Source: Gammaproteobacteria bacterium (lineage in GTDB: Bacteria > Pseudomonadota > Gammaproteobacteria > Pseudomonadales > Pseudomonadaceae). From it: a stretch of DNA of 54,436 bases. How positions within the stretch are numbered: the stretch's first letter is position 1; each line of letters begins with the position of its first letter. The notes beneath the pieces are model-generated. The model had not been told where the DNA came from, searched no databases, and was given only the letters and a program-made list of their open reading frames with translations. The stretch covers positions 1 through 54,436 of the forward strand of contig CAJCIO010000010.1 in NCBI GenBank assembly GCA_903970465.1, written 5' to 3'. Positions 12,921-20,999 of this stretch are shown piece by piece. A program made the position numbers and the translations under genes.

Positions 12921-13373
12921 GCACCTCGTGCCTGTCTCTGTGGGTAATTGGGATAGCCGACAAGTATAGGGCTTGGTACCGGTCTAAGGAACCCGTCTGC
13001 ACAAAAAATAACCAACTGTGGATAATCGAGAGTAATAGAAATTAAAAAGAAAGAGATTTATTAAAGCTTTGTTTTTATGTTTATTTATACACAGGTCGTT
13101 TTCTGTGGATAGATCTACACAGACCTTTAGATACGTGCTGTACAGAGATTCAAAAGGTTGTGGTCATGTGCCAATGAGCCTTTGGGATAAGCGCCATGAA
13201 CCTGTGGATGAAATGGGTGGTTATGCACAGGAGTAGACATCCACAGCCAGGAACCCTTGTTATCACCAGAGCTTAGACGTGGTTTTCCACAGGGCTTAAT
13301 CCACAGATTTGGCAATTCGGAGGGTATAACGAGGGAGGCGTGCCCCCGAAAAGATGTTCGGGGGCGATGCAGA
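12921..13373. other. Second origin-like region upstream of mnmG: DnaA-box cluster with AT-rich segment
   Basis: This 453-bp gap holds no convincing gene. Matches to the relaxed DnaA box TTWTNCACA are at 13017-13025 (minus orientation, perfect TTATCCACA), 13085-13093 (TTATACACA), 13221-13229 (TTATGCACA) and 13283-13291 (TTTTCCACA). One-mismatch boxes are at 13104-13112, 13203-13211 and 13297-13305. An almost pure A/T stretch at about 13030-13088 resembles a DNA unwinding element. The gidA-side intergenic region has been reported to support autonomous replication in pseudomonads; here the main origin is more likely the rpmH-dnaA gap. The mnmG promoter must also lie here, and the msrA hairpin lies at its right end. 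Confidence 0.65.
13342..13365 (-). terminator. Candidate terminator after msrA
   Basis: A GC-rich 9-bp perfect stem (GCCCCCGAA / TTCGGGGGC) with a 6-nt loop begins about 9 nt beyond the msrA stop. No T-tract follows on the minus strand, so its strength is uncertain, but it would shield the DnaA-box region from msrA transcription. Confidence 0.55.
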
Positions 13374-14081
13374 TCAGGGATTTACCAGTACCGGCTTGTC
13401 GCGATAACGGTCTTTGAACGTGGACTCGAGGGCGGCCACCTTCGGCTGGTCGTTGATCATGATGTAGGGGCTGTAGGGATGCTGGGTCAGGTAATCCTGG
13501 TGATAACCCTCGGCCGGATAGAAGCCCTTGAGGTCCTCGACCGTGGTCGCCAGCGGTTTGGACCAGGCCTTGGCGCCATTGAGCTGGGTGATATAGGCCT
13601 CGGCGATCTGCCGTTGGCCGGCATCGCTGGCGAATACCGTGGAGCGATACTGGGTGCCGCTGTCAGGGCCCTGACGATTCAGTTCGGTAGGGTCGTGGAC
13701 CACCGAGAAGTAGATCTGCAACAGTTGTCCATAGGTGACCTGGGTCGGATCGTAGGTCACCTGTACCGACTCGGCATGCCCTGTTTCGCCGCTGCCGACC
13801 TCTTCATAGTGAGCCGTCTGCGCCTGGCCGCCCGCATAGCCGGACACCGCCTGGGTCACGCCATTGACGTGCTGGAAGACACCCTGCACGCCCCAGAAGC
13901 AGCCGCCGGCAAACACGGCGGTCTCACTGTGGACGGTTTTGCCTGGGGTCTCGTCCTGCACTGGAGCAGGGATGATGACCGCTTGTTCAGCATGGGCAAT
14001 AGAGGCGCCCAGCAGCGCGGTGGCGAGGGCGCTCCATTGCAAGGGTTTGCGTAAACGGCGCCAGTTGCGGGCCAGATTCAT
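13374..14081 (-). CDS. msrA: Exported peptide-methionine (S)-S-oxide reductase MsrA
   Basis: Repairs methionine-S-sulfoxide in proteins. The catalytic GGCFWG motif is present (FAGGCFWGVQGVF), as are the conserved Tyr/Glu positions of YAGGQ and SGETGHAESV, and the QYRSTVF and EGYHQDYL signatures. The ATG at 14081 has a GGAGA about 9 nt upstream and gives a 235-aa protein with an N-terminal signal peptide (RRLRK, hydrophobic core, ASIAHA cleavage region). The enzyme should therefore act in the periplasm, unlike the usual cytoplasmic MsrA. It lies downstream of, and in the same direction as, the methionine-rich repeat protein at 14218-14493, a likely substrate. Electron supply in the periplasm is not explained by neighbouring genes. 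Confidence 0.9.
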   Translation of the reverse strand: MNLARNWRRLRKPLQWSALATALLGASIAHAEQAVIIPAPVQDETPGKTVHSETAVFAGGCFWGVQGVFQHVNGVTQAVSGYAGGQAQTAHYEEVGSGETGHAESVQVTYDPTQVTYGQLLQIYFSVVHDPTELNRQGPDSGTQYRSTVFASDAGQRQIAEAYITQLNGAKAWSKPLATTVEDLKGFYPAEGYHQDYLTQHPYSPYIMINDQPKVAALESTFKDRYRDKPVLVNP

Positions 14082-14129
14082 GATGTTGATCTCCAAGCGA
14101 CGAAGGGTGGTGATCTTGCGAACGTTATC

Positions 14130-14197
14130 GCGGCCAGAGCCCGCGCCCACAGCTGCGCGCTTCCTCCAGTGGGGGCGGCTCTGCCCGCGAAGAGGCC
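14130..14197. repeat. Degenerate REP-like palindrome between msrA and the MxKDx gene
   Basis: Imperfect inverted repeat with an AGAGCCCGCGCCCAC left arm and a GTGGGGGCGGCTCT right arm, followed by CCCGCGAAGAGGCC. Composition and the GCGAAGAGGCC end resemble the Pseudomonas extragenic palindromes seen at 44064, 46421 and 50241. It could attenuate transcription between the two genes. Confidence 0.45.
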
Positions 14198-14217
14198 CGT
14201 AGACGTTGAGCAACTGA

Positions 14218-14493
14218 TTACTGGGTCATGCCATCTTTAGGCATAGCATCTTTTTTCATACTGCCCTGGCTCTTAGAATCAGGGCTCATGGTGGTGTCTT
14301 TTTTCATGGCACCTTTGCTCATGGTGTCCTTGTGCATCGCATCTTTGGACATCGCATCCTTGGACATGCTGCCGCTGTCTTTGCTCATGCTGCCCTGCGG
14401 CGTGGCGTCCTTGCTCATGGCATCGGCGGCAAAAACGCTCGCGGTGCCCATGGCCAGGAACAGGGTCAATGCGGTAGTCGTCAGCTTGTTCAT
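14218..14493 (-). CDS. Exported methionine-rich pentapeptide MxKDx repeat protein
   Basis: A 91-aa protein starting at the ATG at 14493 (MNKLTTTALTLFLAMG...), with a clear signal peptide ending near SVFAA. The mature ~70 residues are about ten imperfect pentapeptides of the form [AST]-M-[SKHP]-K-[DG], with eleven methionines (about 16%), many Lys and Asp, and no Cys. This matches the family known as MXKDX pentapeptide repeat proteins, whose biochemical function is not firmly established. Methionine-rich periplasmic peptides such as MrpX of Azospira act as sacrificial oxidant sinks that are recycled by methionine sulfoxide reductase. The exported MsrA next door supports the same role here, which is inference. 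The 15-bp repeat structure suggests growth by tandem duplication. Confidence 0.85.
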   Translation of the reverse strand: MNKLTTTALTLFLAMGTASVFAADAMSKDATPQGSMSKDSGSMSKDAMSKDAMHKDTMSKGAMKKDTTMSPDSKSQGSMKKDAMPKDGMTQ

Positions 14494-14648
14494 TTTTTTC
14501 TCCGAAGGGTAGATGGCGCCAGGTGGCGTGCAGCTATAGTCGCCGCACGCCGCTCGCCAAATCCTCACGCAGAGTTAAATTAAATGTGATAACTCCCAGG
14601 GCCGTTCTTGGCCACAATGGACTTTTCAAAGAGGCGGGAATCAGTCGA

Positions 14649-15386
14649 ATGGACCGGACCAAGCGGGTACTGATCGTAGAAGACGATGCACACATCGCCG
14701 ACTTGCTGCGCCTGCACCTCAAGGACGAAGGTTACGAGGTGGAACACGCCAGCGACGGCAATAAAGGGATGCAGCTGCTGGAACAGCAGAGTTGGGACGC
14801 GCTGGTGCTGGACTTGATGCTGCCCGGTGTCGATGGCCTGGAGATCTGCAAGCGCGCCCGGGCCATGGCCAGCTACACGCCGATCATCATTATCAGTGCC
14901 CGCTCCAGTGAAGTGCACCGCATCCTCGGCCTGGAACTGGGCGCGGACGATTACCAGGCCAAGCCGTTTTCCATGCTCGAACTGGTGGCCAGGGTACGCG
15001 CCCTGTTGCGCCGCACCGATGCCTTGGCCCGTAACGCCCGGCTGGAATCCGGCCTGCTGGAAAGCCACGGCGTGGCCATCGATCCGCTGGCCCGCGAGTC
15101 CTTCCTGCATGGCAAGGCACTGGGTCTGACGCCGCGGGAGTTCGATCTGTTGTACTTCTTTGCCCGGCACCCTGACAAAGTCTTCTCGCGCATGGATCTG
15201 CTCAATGAGGTGTGGGGTTATCAGCACGATGGTTACGAGCACACAGTGAATACCCACATCAACCGGCTACGCACCAAGATCGAAGCCGACCCAGCCAACC
15301 CTCAGCGAATCCTCACGGTTTGGGGTCGGGGCTACAAATTCAGCGCCAACCCTGCGGTTGGCGTACATCCCGAGGTCCTGTCGTGA
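14649..15386 (+). CDS. OmpR-family two-component response regulator
   Basis: A 245-aa DNA-binding response regulator. The receiver domain starts MDRTKRVLIVEDDAH, with acidic pocket Glu11/Asp12/Asp13, phosphoacceptor Asp55 in LVLDLMLPGVDG, and the conserved Lys in ADDYQAKPFS. The C-terminal winged helix ends in VNTHINRLRTKIE ... TVWGRGYKF, typical of OmpR/PhoB regulators. The ATG at 14649 gives the standard N-terminus; longer in-frame starts lack family similarity. It is divergent from the MxKDx gene across 155 bp, which makes that gene and msrA plausible targets. It overlaps the downstream kinase gene. Confidence 0.93.
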   Translation: MDRTKRVLIVEDDAHIADLLRLHLKDEGYEVEHASDGNKGMQLLEQQSWDALVLDLMLPGVDGLEICKRARAMASYTPIIIISARSSEVHRILGLELGADDYQAKPFSMLELVARVRALLRRTDALARNARLESGLLESHGVAIDPLARESFLHGKALGLTPREFDLLYFFARHPDKVFSRMDLLNEVWGYQHDGYEHTVNTHINRLRTKIEADPANPQRILTVWGRGYKFSANPAVGVHPEVLS

Positions 15387-16846
15387 AACACCTGAGCCTG
15401 ACACAGCGGCTATCGCTGGTGTTTGCTGTGCTGTTGATTGCCTGCAGCGGCGTCTCGGTGTGGTTGCAGATCAACGCCAACAAGCGCCATGAACAAGAGG
15501 TCGTCCAAGCGTTATCCACAGGCCTGGCGGGTCATATCGCGGCCACTGCTCAGTTGATGGACATCGACGGCTGGCGGCCCGATGCGGTGCGCCAGTTGTT
15601 CGATAAACTGATGGCCGTGAATCCCTCCGTCGAGGTGTACCTGCTGTCCGGCGACGGCAGGATTGTCGGCAACGCCGCCCCTGAAGGGCGTCTGCAACTG
15701 CAGCGGGTCGACCTTGCGCCTATCAAACGCTTGCTCGGTGGTGCCCCTTTGCCGGTACTGGGCGACGACCCGCGTAATCCACAGGCGCAGAAAGTCTTCA
15801 GCGCGGCACCAGTGACGGTTGCCGGGCGCGAAGCGGGTTACGTGTATGTGGTCCTGCAGGGCGAAGCACGCGAGGCTTTGGCTGCGGCTTTATCCACAGA
15901 CTCGGTACTGCGGGCGACGCTCTGGGCCATGGCGCTGATGGCGCTGTTCACTTTGATCATGGGCTTGGTTGCCTTCCGTTTGATCACGCGCCCATTGCGC
16001 CAGCTGACCCAGGCTGTGGGTAACTTCGATCCTCATGGCGAGGCGGCCGCCGCACTGGTGGACAACCGCGAGCAATTTGTCCACAGGGACGAAATAGGTA
16101 CGCTGCGCGGTGCCTTCGCGTTGATGGGGCAGCGCCTCACGCAGCAATGGCGGGAATTATCTGCGCAGGATCAGCAGCGCCGGGACATGGTCGCCAACAT
16201 CTCCCACGACCTGCGCACCCCGCTTACCTCCCTGCACGGCTATCTGGAAACCTTGCGCCTCAAGGACCAGACCCTCAGCCTTGAAGAACGTCGTCATTAT
16301 CTGGATATCGCCCTGGGCCAAAGCAGCAAGGTCGGACGCCTGGCCCAGGAATTGTTCGAGCTGGCACGCCTTGAGTCCGGCTTGGTGCACCCTGAACTCG
16401 AACCTTTCGCCCTGCCCGATCTGGTGCAGGACGTGATGCAGAAGTTCGAGTTGGCGGCCGAGGCACGGCAGCAACGCCTTTCAGTGGAAATGCCACCCGC
16501 GCTTCCAGCGGTGCGCGCCGACCTGGGCATGATAGAGCGGGTGCTGACCAACCTGCTCGACAACGCCATCCGCCATAACCCGGCCGGCACGCATATTCGG
16601 GTGCGCATGCAGGCGCAGTTGCCGATGGTTCGGGTCGAAGTGGCCGACAGCGGCCAAGGCCTGTCACCCCAAGTGCGCAAAGGGCTGTTCACCAGGGCCT
16701 CGGCCTTGCAGCGGATACCCGGAGAGAGCGGCGGCCTGGGGCTGATCATCGTCCAGCGGATGCTGCAATTGCATGGCAGTGAAGTTCAGTTGGTCGAGGC
16801 CGTTCAGCCGGGGACGGTATTCCGCTTTCATCTGCAGGCCGCCTGA
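15383..16846 (+). CDS. Two-component sensor histidine kinase
   Basis: A 487-aa inner-membrane kinase, partner of the upstream regulator; the GTG start overlaps that gene's stop (GTGA) and has a GAGG upstream. The layout is TM1 (about 8-28), a periplasmic sensor region (about 29-175), TM2 (about 179-199), HAMP, then HisKA with phosphoacceptor His275 in NISHDLRTP. The HATPase domain has N-box LLDNAIRHNP (Asn394), DSGQGL and GGLGL. The signal is unknown; the periplasmic sensor plus the neighbouring exported MsrA and Met-rich protein suggest an envelope oxidant or redox cue, which is inference. The gene carries two perfect DnaA boxes (15512 and 15890). Confidence 0.93.
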   Translation: MKHLSLTQRLSLVFAVLLIACSGVSVWLQINANKRHEQEVVQALSTGLAGHIAATAQLMDIDGWRPDAVRQLFDKLMAVNPSVEVYLLSGDGRIVGNAAPEGRLQLQRVDLAPIKRLLGGAPLPVLGDDPRNPQAQKVFSAAPVTVAGREAGYVYVVLQGEAREALAAALSTDSVLRATLWAMALMALFTLIMGLVAFRLITRPLRQLTQAVGNFDPHGEAAAALVDNREQFVHRDEIGTLRGAFALMGQRLTQQWRELSAQDQQRRDMVANISHDLRTPLTSLHGYLETLRLKDQTLSLEERRHYLDIALGQSSKVGRLAQELFELARLESGLVHPELEPFALPDLVQDVMQKFELAAEARQQRLSVEMPPALPAVRADLGMIERVLTNLLDNAIRHNPAGTHIRVRMQAQLPMVRVEVADSGQGLSPQVRKGLFTRASALQRIPGESGGLGLIIVQRMLQLHGSEVQLVEAVQPGTVFRFHLQAA

Positions 16847-16925: not shown

Positions 16926-17432
16926 ATGCCCTCACTCCCCCATACCGACGCTGTCCAGCGCATCTACCACCAGCACCATCACTGGTTGCAGGGGTGGCTG
17001 AGGGGGCGATTGTCGTGCGCCAGCGATGCCGCCGATGTCGCCCACGATACATTCGTGCGGATGCTCAGCTCGCGCAGTGCCGATCAGATCCGCGAGCCGC
17101 GGGATTATCTGGCCACCGTCGCTCGGGGTCTGGTGATCGACCGTTATCGCCGGCGCGCGATTGAGTCGGCCTATTTGCAGAGCCTTGCCGCTCGCCCGGA
17201 ACAAGTGGCCCCTAGTGAAGAAGACAAAGCCATCATTCTCGACACGCTGGTCGCTGTGGATAAAGCCTTGGCGATGCTCGGTGCCCGCACGCAGCGGATT
17301 TTCCTGCTGTCGCAGCTTGACGGCCTGACTTATCAACAGATCGCCGCGCAGCTCGACGTCTCCTTGACGACGGTCAAGAAACACATGGTCCGCGCTTTCA
17401 CCGAGTGCACGCTGATCATGGCGGCGGCCTGA
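16926..17432 (+). CDS. FecI-type ECF sigma factor
   Basis: A 168-aa iron-starvation sigma factor. Region 2 contains ASDAADVAHDTFVRML, and region 4 the helix-turn-helix LDGLTYQQIAAQLDVSLTTVKKHM. With the FecR-like regulator directly after it and the TonB receptor with an N-terminal signalling domain downstream, it forms a cell-surface signalling cassette for ferric siderophore uptake. A Fur box overlaps its promoter region. A perfect DnaA box lies at 17255-17263. It should direct RNA polymerase to the receptor promoter when the ligand is bound. Confidence 0.93.
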   Translation: MPSLPHTDAVQRIYHQHHHWLQGWLRGRLSCASDAADVAHDTFVRMLSSRSADQIREPRDYLATVARGLVIDRYRRRAIESAYLQSLAARPEQVAPSEEDKAIILDTLVAVDKALAMLGARTQRIFLLSQLDGLTYQQIAAQLDVSLTTVKKHMVRAFTECTLIMAAA

Positions 17433-18377
17433 ATGGTCAGCCTGCCACAGCGCAAGATCGTTGAAGCGGCCGCGACCTGGTACGTGCAGTTCCAAAGCGA
17501 AGCGCCCAGCGACCGGCAGCGCGAAGCCTGGCAACGCTGGCTCGACAGCGACCCGGAGCATCGTCTGGCTTGGGAGCAAATGGAACGCATGCAGCGCCAA
17601 CTCGGCGCCCTGCCCCGCGAGGCCAGCCGTCGGGCGTTGTCGGCTGGTCAGCAGCGCCGCCAGGTGCTCAAGCTGCTCGCCCTGGCGGGCGCCACGGGTT
17701 ACCTGGGCTGGAGCGTGCAGGGTCGCATCAGCCCCTCGGCGTTGTGGGCCGACTACCGCACCGCAGTGGGCGCGCACCGCTCGATCGAATTGGCCGATGG
17801 CACCCGGGTCGAATTGAATACCGATACGGCTGTGGATATCTCCTATGATCCGCAACAACGGCTGATCAGATTGCTGCAGGGTGAAATTCTGGTCAGCACT
17901 GGCAAGCGCGGCGATCAACGCCCGCTCTATGTGGCCACACGCGAAGGACGAGTCCAGGCGTTGGGGACAGTTTTTTCCGTCCGGCAGTTATCCACAGCCA
18001 CCCGGGTCGGCGTGCTTGAAGACCAAGTGCGTCTGTTCCCACAGGATGCCTCTGCAGACGATCAACGCCTGAAAGCCGGTGAGAGCGCAGAGTTCGACCG
18101 CCAGCATGTTTCCCCTCACCAGACCTATGCCGCTTCCCAGACGGCCTGGGTCGTCGGCCAGTTGATCGTGCTGGATGCCACGCTTGGTGAAGTTGCCGCA
18201 GAGCTGGACCGCTATCGTCCGGGCTCGTTGCGCTGTGAGCCGCAGGCTGCCCGGCTGCGGGTATCGGGGACCTTCAAGGTGAATGACAGCGATGCGGTAC
18301 TGAGCAATCTGCAGGCGACATTGCCGATCAGCGTCAGCTATTTCACCCGTTATTGGGTCACCATCACGCATCGCTAA
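17433..18377 (+). CDS. FecR-type transmembrane anti-sigma regulator
   Basis: A 314-aa protein that relays ligand occupancy of the receptor to the sigma factor. The cytoplasmic N-terminal part has AATWYVQFQSEAPSDRQREAWQRWLDSDPEHRLAWEQME, here split as the AATWYV and WLDSDPEHR motifs of the FecR N-domain. A membrane helix follows (LLALAGATGYLGWSV), then the periplasmic FecR domain (ELADGTRVELNTDTAV ... QGEILV) and a C-terminal receptor-contact domain. Its ATG directly abuts the sigma stop, so translation is coupled. A perfect DnaA box lies at 17988-17996. Confidence 0.92.
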   Translation: MVSLPQRKIVEAAATWYVQFQSEAPSDRQREAWQRWLDSDPEHRLAWEQMERMQRQLGALPREASRRALSAGQQRRQVLKLLALAGATGYLGWSVQGRISPSALWADYRTAVGAHRSIELADGTRVELNTDTAVDISYDPQQRLIRLLQGEILVSTGKRGDQRPLYVATREGRVQALGTVFSVRQLSTATRVGVLEDQVRLFPQDASADDQRLKAGESAEFDRQHVSPHQTYAASQTAWVVGQLIVLDATLGEVAAELDRYRPGSLRCEPQAARLRVSGTFKVNDSDAVLSNLQATLPISVSYFTRYWVTITHR

Positions 18378-18551
18378 AGATGCCCGCTCCCACACAAATG
18401 GCGCTCACCCTGTCAGACCGGGCCCTGCCCAAGGATCTCTGGATCCAGAAATAATCCACAGGCCGGTTATCTTTTTCAAAGCTGGCGCGGCCCTACAGAT
18501 AACCGCGAATAAACGCGAACGTCTGTCACCTTTCCAGAGCCGAAAAACACC

Positions 18552-20999
18552 ATGCGCTTTCCCCCAGTGACTTTGTCTGCCCGCCGGCATCTTTCGCGAC
18601 ACTGCGTTGCCTATGCCCTGCTGATCAGCAGTACCAGCCTGTTGCCGCTGCTCAGCAGCGGTGCCTACGCCGCGAGTGCCACGCAAAGTTACACCATCGC
18701 CGCCGGCCCGCTGGACAAGGCCTTGAGCCAGTTTGCCGCCTCGGCTGACGTGATGCTTTCGTTCGCGCCCGGGCAGACAGCCAATCGCCGTACCTCAGGG
18801 TTGCAGGGGAGCTATTCGCTGGATCAGGGTTTCGCCACGCTCCTGCAAGGCTCCGGTTTGCAGGCCGTCAGCCAGGCGCCGGGGAGCTATGTATTACAGG
18901 CCGTGCCTGCCAGTGACACGATCAATCTCGCGCCGACCCGTATCGAATCTTCCGCGCCGGGTATACAGGGGCAATACGCCGAGCCTGATGTGGGCTACAA
19001 GGCCGACCGCAGCCGCGCCGCTACCAAGACCAGTACGGCCCTGTCGGAGACTCCACGTTCGGTCTCGGTAGTTACCGCGCAGCGCATGAAGGACCAAAAA
19101 TCCCAGAGCCTCACTGAAGTGCTCGGCTATGTGCCAGGTATCTTCGCGCCGCCCTTCGCGGCTGGCGACAGCCTGGCCGGTGACCTGTTCTTTATCCGCG
19201 GCTTCAACGCCACCGACTACGGTTACGGCCTGCTACGCGATGGCCTGCGAGTGCAAGGCAACCGCTATGACACCACCACCGAACCCTATGGTCTGGAGCG
19301 GGTCGAGATCTTCCGCGGTCCGTCGTCCATTCTCTATGGCGAAAACGCCCCGGGCGGATTGGTCAACCTGGTCAGCAAACGGCCGACCGCCGAGCCCCAG
19401 GGCGAGGTGCAACTGGGCTACGGCAGCAACAATCGCCGCCAGTTGGGTATCGATGTGTCCGGGCCGCTGAACGATAGCGGCACTGTGCTAGGGCGGATGG
19501 TGATGTTCGGTCGTGAATCCGACACCCAGACCGATCACGTACCGGACGATCGCCTGTACGTGGCGCCGTCGATGACCCTCAACTTCGACGACTACAACAG
19601 CCTGACTTTGCTGGCCAACTACCAGAAGGACCACACCAATCTCGAGCTGGGGCTGCCGGCCGCAGGCACCCTGCTGGACAACCCCAATGGCAAGCTGAGC
19701 AAGCACACCATGCTGGGCGATCCGGACTGGAACCACTTCAAGCGCGAGACCTGGAGCGGCGGATACGAATTTATCCACAGTTTCAATGACGATTGGCAGT
19801 TCCGCCAGAACTCGCGGTTCATGGAATCGCGCATCGATCGTCACGAAACCTGGCCAACCGCCCTGAACAACGGTGGCTATGGCACCAACGTAACCATGAC
19901 CGCCTATGATCGGGATAACGAGTCGACGGTTTACTCTGTGGATAACCAGCTGGAAGGCAAGTTCGCCCTCGGACCTGTGGATAACACTTTGTTGCTCGGC
20001 GCCAGCCATGACCGCACTGCGTTCAATCAGGACTGGGACGCAGGGTTTGGGGGTGTCATCAATGTCTTCAACCCTGTGTATACGCGCACGCCAACGACAC
20101 CGGTGCACGTGCAGAACACACTCCTCGATCAGGAGATGAACGGGGTTTATGCACAGCTCCACAGCAAGTATGACCACTGGATCATGCTGTTGGGTGGGCG
20201 CCAGGACTGGGTCGACAGTGATTTTCGCGACAAGGTCAGCCCGGCCAGCGACATCAGTTCCACCGATCAGAAGTTCACCTATCAGGGCGGCTTGATGTAC
20301 GCCTTTGATAACGGTGTCACGCCGTATATCAGCTATTCGACGGCGTTCGTGCCCGTGCAGCAGATCTCCAATGCCGGCGCGCCGCTCAATCCGATCACCA
20401 GCCGCCAGTACGAAGTCGGGATGAAGATCGAGCCGATTGGCTGGGACACCTCGATCACCGCATCCGTGTACGATCTGTTGAAGAAAGACGACACCTATCT
20501 GGATTCAACCACCAATACTTATCGCCAGGTCGGCCAAAGCCGTTCCAAGGGCATGGAGTTGGAAGTCAACAGCGACATCACCGCTCACCTCAACCTAGTG
20601 GCCTCTTACAGCTACACCGATGCGCGCATCACCAAGGACAAGGCCGGCTCGATCGTCGAAGGCAAGCAGATGACCGGCGTGCCGCGCAACCAAGCCTCGG
20701 TCTGGGCCAAATACCGCTTCCTCGATGGCTACCTCAATGGCCTGCATGTCGGCGCCGGGGTGCGCTATTTCGACAGCACCTTCTCGTACACCGGCTCGAG
20801 CCTGTACGGCAAGCTCGATGCCGGCGACGTGACGCTGGTGGACGCCAACGTCGGCTACCGCATCGACCCGCACTGGTCGGTGGACCTGAACGCGAAGAAC
20901 CTCTTCAACAAGGACTATGTGTCCGGTTGCAACGACGCCGGGCGATGCTACTGGGGCGACACTCGGACCCTGTTGGGGACGGTTTCCTACAACTGGTGA
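18552..20999 (+). CDS. TonB-dependent siderophore receptor with signalling (STN) domain
   Basis: An 815-aa outer-membrane receptor. A signal peptide (about residues 1-40) is followed by the secretin/TonB short N-terminal domain (about 47-115: YTIAAGPLDKALSQFA ... SYVLQ), which contacts FecR. The plug domain contains RSVSVVTAQRM and ILYGENAPGGLVNLVSKRP, and a 22-strand barrel ends in the aromatic residue of TVSYNW. Features match the FpvA/FoxA/FhuE siderophore-receptor class; the ligand cannot be read from the sequence. No siderophore biosynthesis gene is nearby, so the ligand may be a foreign siderophore. Three perfect DnaA boxes fall inside the gene (19771, 19937, 19976). Confidence 0.93.
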   Translation: MRFPPVTLSARRHLSRHCVAYALLISSTSLLPLLSSGAYAASATQSYTIAAGPLDKALSQFAASADVMLSFAPGQTANRRTSGLQGSYSLDQGFATLLQGSGLQAVSQAPGSYVLQAVPASDTINLAPTRIESSAPGIQGQYAEPDVGYKADRSRAATKTSTALSETPRSVSVVTAQRMKDQKSQSLTEVLGYVPGIFAPPFAAGDSLAGDLFFIRGFNATDYGYGLLRDGLRVQGNRYDTTTEPYGLERVEIFRGPSSILYGENAPGGLVNLVSKRPTAEPQGEVQLGYGSNNRRQLGIDVSGPLNDSGTVLGRMVMFGRESDTQTDHVPDDRLYVAPSMTLNFDDYNSLTLLANYQKDHTNLELGLPAAGTLLDNPNGKLSKHTMLGDPDWNHFKRETWSGGYEFIHSFNDDWQFRQNSRFMESRIDRHETWPTALNNGGYGTNVTMTAYDRDNESTVYSVDNQLEGKFALGPVDNTLLLGASHDRTAFNQDWDAGFGGVINVFNPVYTRTPTTPVHVQNTLLDQEMNGVYAQLHSKYDHWIMLLGGRQDWVDSDFRDKVSPASDISSTDQKFTYQGGLMYAFDNGVTPYISYSTAFVPVQQISNAGAPLNPITSRQYEVGMKIEPIGWDTSITASVYDLLKKDDTYLDSTTNTYRQVGQSRSKGMELEVNSDITAHLNLVASYSYTDARITKDKAGSIVEGKQMTGVPRNQASVWAKYRFLDGYLNGLHVGAGVRYFDSTFSYTGSSLYGKLDAGDVTLVDANVGYRIDPHWSVDLNAKNLFNKDYVSGCNDAGRCYWGDTRTLLGTVSYNW

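Follow-up and report, generated by a model that had tools for sequence, protein, structure and literature searches.

Two kinds of periplasmic methionine (Met) repair are familiar, one built on a molybdoenzyme (MsrPQ) and the other on Msr proteins of the thiol type. We describe a locus in which the genes for a Met-rich MXKDX protein and an exported-type MsrA lie opposite a two-component system (TCS), found in the window, by which we mean the whole 54,436-nucleotide stretch of contig CAJCIO010000010.1 from a member of the Pseudomonadaceae (assembly GCA_903970465.1). The closest described system is OrhK/OrhR (C3564/C3565) of Escherichia coli CFT073: in the available part of the report (PMC8550376), c3566-c3568, which encode a cytochrome b, an MsrP-like protein and a Met-rich peptide, depend on OrhK/OrhR with H2O2 as the signal, OrhR binds a 260-nt piece of the c3566 promoter in a gel shift, inverted repeats TCACA-N15-TGTGA lie directly upstream of the -35 box, and, unlike at the window, the operon continues into the hemolysin operon. 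Met-rich proteins are also paired with a sulfoxide reductase in Azospira, as the periplasmic MrpX with MsrP/MsrQ (Melnyk 2015, as described in citing papers), and in Brucella (BcrS/AbcS with bcrXQP), where an oxidant-induced operon with a Met-rich MXKDX protein and an MsrP/MsrQ-type reductase is under extracytoplasmic function (ECF) sigma/anti-sigma control (excerpts of PMC8315932). E. coli HprSR with msrPQ is an example of periplasmic Met repair under a TCS; for HprS, two periplasmic Met are reported to act as sensors and a membrane Cys to pass the signal on (review PMC10151825, in the part available). Thiol-type repair with a thioredoxin-like electron carrier is represented by proteins that fuse MsrA and MsrB to a thioredoxin part, and by mycobacterial DipZ.

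We consider it likely, with a probability of roughly 0.68, that the OrhR/OrhK-like TCS of the window switches on a predicted periplasmic set (MXKDX-msrA, msrB and dipZ) that would reduce oxidised Met and recycle the MXKDX protein as an oxidant sink. The four products of this set are predicted to be exported or membrane-located. The features of the locus are as follows.

13374-14081, minus strand: msrA, encoding a predicted exported peptide-methionine (S)-S-oxide reductase of 235 aa whose only Cys lies in GCFWG
14082-14217, no strand: gap of 136 bp between the MXKDX gene and msrA, containing a repetitive extragenic palindromic (REP)-like inverted pair
14218-14493, minus strand: MXKDX gene, product of 91 aa, predicted mature part of 69 residues with 11 Met
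14494-14648: divergent gap of 155 bp between the MXKDX gene and the response regulator gene
14536-14541, minus strand: predicted -10 element GACTAT, placed by an A and a T at fixed distance from the box
14562-14592, minus strand: predicted operator box TTATCACATTTAATTTAACTCTGCGTGAGGA, core TCACA-N15-CGTGA at 14565-14589
14649-15386, plus strand: response regulator, OmpR-family, OrhR-like by family and homologue matches
15383-16846, plus strand: sensor histidine kinase, OrhK-like, with a GTG start and a 4-base overlap with the regulator gene

The gene-level description in the initial annotation stands: an MXKDX protein of about 70 mature residues with 11 Met (coordinates, TIGR02953 match and Met count agree), an MsrA with an export-like N-terminus in the same direction (position and families agree, the segment being judged by eye), and a TCS divergent across 155 bp. 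Its view that no described system has this make-up has to be given up, since OrhK/OrhR with c3566-c3568 is a described relative, and its choice of hypochlorite (HOCl) as the oxidant is not established, the E. coli relative being reported as H2O2-responsive (both from the available part of PMC8550376).

The window shares with OrhK/OrhR a divergent OmpR-type TCS with homologous regulator and kinase, a Met-rich peptide in the divergent operon, and an inverted repeat, TCACA-N15-CGTGA, that is one arm base apart from the TCACA-N15-TGTGA given in the accessible text. The comparison was made through the chromosomal locus of E. coli ATCC 25922, equated with CFT073 c3564-c3568 by gene order, chromosomal place and the repeat: gene order is the same, the regulator and kinase are 60% and 45% identical to those of the window, the small gene encodes 12 Met of 80 residues and matches the MXKDX protein at 37.5%, and the box has two mismatches, with arms exactly TCACA-N15-TGTGA. 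Its molybdoenzyme and cytochrome b are 58% and 54% (over part) identical to those of a genus relative of the window, G027. The OrhRK-type loci of E. coli comprise this chromosomal form and a plasmid form, 73% identical in DNA; the latter occurs in 72 of 5426 genomes, has a regulator 67% and a kinase 47% identical to those of the window and also has the box, with two mismatches. In the annotations, the plasmid regulator gene (L109 1840-2562) contains an internal stop and the ATCC 25922 cytochrome b gene (L207 1076-1674) is frameshifted.

The window differs from OrhK/OrhR in that cytochrome b and molybdoenzyme, which occur in G027, G051, G086 and three Variovorax loci, are absent, and in that the MXKDX gene is followed by an exported-type msrA, with the box found also at msrB and dipZ. 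What is new is thus the thiol branch (MsrA, MsrB, DipZ) in an OrhRK-type predicted regulon, the related E. coli system having been published already. Unlike the Azospira pair as described in citing papers, the window has MsrA (with MsrB and DipZ) and a TCS, and assignment of the MXKDX locus to MrpX/MsrPQ or BcrXQP was rejected, there being no MsrP/MsrQ-type reductase at the locus. The HprSR system has other target enzymes, and the window regulator scores 153.6 bits against the HprR cut-off of 353 (NCBIfam) and was rejected as an HprR; it also falls under the PhoB cut-off. In place of the MsrA/MsrB fusions there are three separate genes, at three loci in the window's genome, joined by one box. 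A literature search, with subscription papers outside it, returned no paper joining MsrA, MsrB, DipZ and the periplasm. For DipZ together with methionine sulfoxide reductase there was one paper, on Salmonella CpxR, and besides PMC8550376 a review (PMC12846084) concerns OrhK/OrhR.

Judged from the sequences of relatives, the association of MXKDX, exported-type MsrA and TCS is a real, conserved link that goes beyond adjacency. Among 149 genomes of the window's genus (the window's own genome is G000), exported-type MsrA (E <= 2.9e-83, the next match being at 1.4e-46) and the regulator (E <= 1e-80) share an identical set of 51 genomes, within one stretch of <=12.5 kb in 50 of them and near the ends of two contigs in G140. 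The genus is probably Pseudomonas, as a regulator-kinase row from it (L054) is identical to one from a named Pseudomonas contig (L135). MXKDX matches at E <= 0.001 were found in 27 genomes, of which 24 exceed the family cut-off; the three below it (G015, G089, G126) were removed ahead of counting, and all 24 fall inside the 51 (Fisher 7e-14, kinship ignored). The co-occurrence across the genus that the initial annotation proposed to survey is therefore borne out.

The gaps between TCS and target genes have a common box close to GTTATCACRNWTNRTTTAACTNNNCGTGAGGATTTGG, with a core of TCACR-N15-YGTGA, and the same box stands ahead of 16 of 19 MXKDX operons located far from the TCS. An alignment of 67 promoters, from 51 gaps and 16 operons (with the weak L089 but without L093, L099 and L100), has positions 2 (A) and 6 (T) of the predicted -10 element at constant spacing from the box in all 67. 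Allowing two mismatches, the box pattern gives 66 matches in 46 of the 149 genomes, all 46 among the 51 with the TCS, whose other five genomes carry a variant box with 3 to 5 mismatches. The matches comprise 45 TCS/target gaps, 16 cytochrome b-molybdoenzyme-MXKDX operons and five relocated msrB or dipZ genes; since the pattern was built from the first two classes, those 61 are expected by construction, and the independent tests are the five extra sites and the 98 genomes lacking the TCS, where there were zero matches at this setting. The reversed pattern likewise had zero matches in the 149 genomes. All five extra sites (G000 msrB, G023 msrB and the dipZ of G023, G051 and G086) lie immediately before the gene and outside the cluster. 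For the MXKDX-containing cluster, msrB and dipZ respectively, mismatches number 0, 1 and 3 in G000, 0, 2 and 2 in G023, 1, 5 and 2 in G051, and 0, 4 and 2 in G086, the boxes at G000 dipZ, G051 msrB and G086 msrB being the weaker copies. The common control supposed by the initial annotation thus receives a concrete form, a predicted operator box common to the TCS gap and the target genes.

Outside the genus, the comparison covered the 80 best-matching named MsrA loci out of at least 587. Among them 41 have the TCS, 40 of these with the box (<=4 mismatches) and L142 with six mismatches, and of the 39 without the TCS only two, both in Burkholderia, have the box, in genomes whose regulator (77% identical) lies elsewhere. 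In a class-wide sample of 369 genomes the box (<=1 mismatch) was found only in the window's genome, a result that says little beyond rarity because the sample holds few genomes per family. One record titled Bacillus subtilis (L193) has a TCS-msrB-dipZ-msrA locus and is likely a contaminated or mislabelled assembly.

The layouts of the 51 genomes bear on which enzyme recycles the MXKDX protein. The TCS stands opposite msrB-dipZ-msrA in 39 (one divided between two contigs) and opposite msrB-msrA in five, msrB being undetected in two; the MXKDX gene lies inside the TCS cluster in five, namely the window, G023, G027, G051 and G086. In G051 and G086 the order is TCS, cytochrome b, molybdoenzyme, MXKDX, msrA, a layout shared by the three Variovorax loci, and G027 differs by an msrB ahead of msrA. 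The window and G023 have MXKDX-msrA as the only cluster targets, with no cytochrome b or molybdoenzyme there, and the other 19 MXKDX genomes have a distant cytochrome b-molybdoenzyme-MXKDX operon (in G079 the MXKDX gene is known by family match). A cytochrome b and a molybdopterin oxidoreductase therefore adjoin MXKDX in 22 of the 24 genomes, the exceptions being G000 and G023, so that the window and one of its four close relatives appear to have lost the molybdoenzyme beside MXKDX, which is a second new point. Structurally, the molybdoenzyme of the relatives has only a 50-bit match to 1xdq. A tree of 93 rows, made by a quick method and rooted for drawing only, groups all five loci of the window type as a single clade (99), with the window row among the long ones, and does not settle the ancestral layout.

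With molybdoenzyme and cytochrome b gone from the window locus, the thiol-type enzymes would be left to recycle the MXKDX protein. The stronger form of this idea is that in this lineage MsrA and MsrB fed by DipZ replaced the molybdoenzyme, with one OrhRK-type kinase reading oxidation through an invariant periplasmic Met and a single operator uniting the scattered genes; we put it forward tentatively, at somewhat less than even odds. The replacement of the molybdoenzyme by MsrA, as initially annotated, fits the window and G023 and fails as a rule, and MsrA, though present, is not the sole candidate reductase, exported-type MsrB and DipZ being in the same predicted regulon.

The most serious competitor, which we regard as possible though less likely than not, keeps the TCS and box as proposed and has MsrA, MsrB and DipZ repair envelope proteins generally, the MXKDX protein being recycled by a molybdoenzyme paralogue elsewhere or not at all. 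The window's genome does hold such a paralogue, a second molybdoenzyme-cytochrome b pair (60% and 55%) on contig G000:C145 (L107 4334-8671), which could act on MXKDX. It lies near another TCS (regulator 37%, kinase 28%), however, and its 10.5-kb contig has no box at up to six mismatches; moreover, G000 and G023 have lost the adjacent pair, yet the MXKDX gene stays next to msrA behind the box.

Several further observations weigh against our preferred reading of the TCS, the box and the recycling of MXKDX. The molybdoenzyme is kept beside MXKDX so regularly that it is probably the usual partner, and 27 of the 51 genomes have TCS and MsrA without MXKDX, which indicates repair independent of it; both points favour the competitor just described. 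The MXKDX gene directly adjoins msrA in only four of 24 genomes, with msrB intervening in a fifth and the two far apart in 19, and all co-occurrence counts ignore kinship. A good box is missing at three of the 19 distant MXKDX operons (L089 has a site with six mismatches, L093 and L100 have no site), and neither Burkholderia genome with an unlinked regulator has a box within about 1.5 kb of that regulator. A simple scan of 13250-14700 found no sigma-70 consensus promoter, which fits a regulator binding over the -35 region, or else the predicted -10 may be wrong. As a separate observation, the box-less distant MXKDX operon of G119 (L012/L093) adjoins a different kinase (30% identical), perhaps reflecting a change of regulator.

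Under the reading we prefer, in which the OrhR/OrhK-like TCS controls both the sink and its repair, the kinase would sense an envelope oxidant, perhaps via Met77, with Cys21 relaying the signal in the manner reported for HprS, and the phosphorylated regulator would activate transcription by binding at the box, across the -35 region. Met77, in the predicted periplasmic part, is present in 52 of 52 kinases and in 92 of 92 of a wider overlapping set. Of the 52 kinases, 51 have Cys21, which lies in the first predicted membrane helix. A structure model of the kinase (mean predicted local distance difference test score, pLDDT, 74; predicted template modelling score, pTM, 0.44) has a periplasmic part of mixed helix and strand with Met77 near a helix end, modelled there at moderate confidence. 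The MXKDX gene and msrA are likely co-transcribed, as predicted from the sequence; a simple scan found no minus-strand terminator between them.

The MXKDX protein, being small, Met-rich and predicted to be exported, would be oxidised in place of other envelope proteins. It belongs to TIGR02953 (penta_MxKDx; 61.4 bits, curated cut-off 41), and its 11 Met in the 69 residues past residue 22 compare with a Met content of 2.24% in 19 other window genes, where no 69-residue stretch has more than seven (binomial tail 4e-7). Its mature part, cut after residue 22, has no Cys and no aromatic residue. The signal segments predicted by eye are MNKLTTTALTLFLAMGTASVFA-AD for the MXKDX protein and ...LATALLGASIAHA-EQ for MsrA.

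Reduction would then fall to MsrA for the S sulfoxides and to MsrB for the R sulfoxides of MXKDX and other proteins, with DipZ, through a CcdA-like membrane part and a thioredoxin part, bringing electrons outward to both; the recycling of MXKDX by MsrA is thus a prediction from gene content and family. The window MsrA belongs to TIGR00401 (172.2 bits, cut-off 108.1; PF01625, 195 bits), has a hydrophobic N-terminal segment as read by eye, and shares the catalytic motif GCFWG with 50 of 50 relatives inspected; its closest solved structure is 3bqg, an msrA/msrB protein. Counted from the sequence it has one Cys only, consistent with direct reduction by a DipZ-like donor, and 31 of the 50 relatives have two or three Cys, the N-terminal segment included. 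DipZ matches M. tuberculosis DipZ (5cyy, 199 bits) and CcdA (5vkv, 39 bits), with 5cyy/2hyx the closest solved structures. Of the 149 genomes, 44 have a long DipZ (>=67% identical, in some cases as two pieces), and all 44 are among the 51. Six of the seven TCS genomes without a full-length DipZ (G027, G038, G058, G088, G128, G131) have MXKDX with cytochrome b and molybdoenzyme; a tie between DipZ loss and MXKDX was rejected as too weak (Fisher 0.042, kinship ignored). In the window's genome a contig break (G000:C45 end, C8 start) runs through the msrB that carries the box.

That the locus is instead a module for copper or another metal, with MXKDX binding Cu(I) via Met and the TCS as the metal sensor, we hold to be improbable. 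E. coli is reported to repair periplasmic Met under copper stress (PMC9302797, in the part available), and there is some similarity to metal sensors, which does not reach family membership: the kinase scores 151.9 bits with TIGR01386 (CzcS/SilS/CopS-type, cut-off 292.55) and the regulator 167 bits with TIGR01387 (cut-off 279.2), so that both assignments were rejected. In addition, every one of the 66 box sites belongs to a Met-repair or MXKDX locus, and mature MXKDX proteins have 0-2 His, the window copy being without Cys past residue 22. A chance neighbourhood of MXKDX, msrA and TCS with no functional link is very improbable, for although the MXKDX gene is located elsewhere in 19 of 24 genomes, the genome sets of MsrA and TCS are identical and the box is common also to 16 of the 19 distant operons.

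One regulator and one operator appear to join both Met-repair chemistries in Pseudomonas and Burkholderiales. The specificity of the box (66 of 66 matches at these loci over 149 genomes) makes the regulon readable from sequence. In the window's genome the sink protein has persisted while the reductase that usually adjoins it is missing from the locus, a natural case that makes the question of the recycler testable with few deletions. The invariant kinase Met, in turn, would allow oxidant sensing through Met to be tested directly in a system other than HprS.

As to its surroundings, we take the window to be the chromosomal replication-origin region (atp genes, parAB, rsmG, mnmG ... mnmE, yidC, rnpA, dnaA, dnaN, recF, gyrB), with msrA, the MXKDX gene and the TCS placed between mnmG and mnmE. 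Between the TCS and mnmE, at 16926-20999, are a fecI-like sigma factor, a fecR-like regulator and a TonB-dependent siderophore receptor, which are iron-type by family and were rejected as part of the module. G023, G051 and G086, three relatives with the TCS at this site, instead have the kinase gene directly adjoining mnmE.

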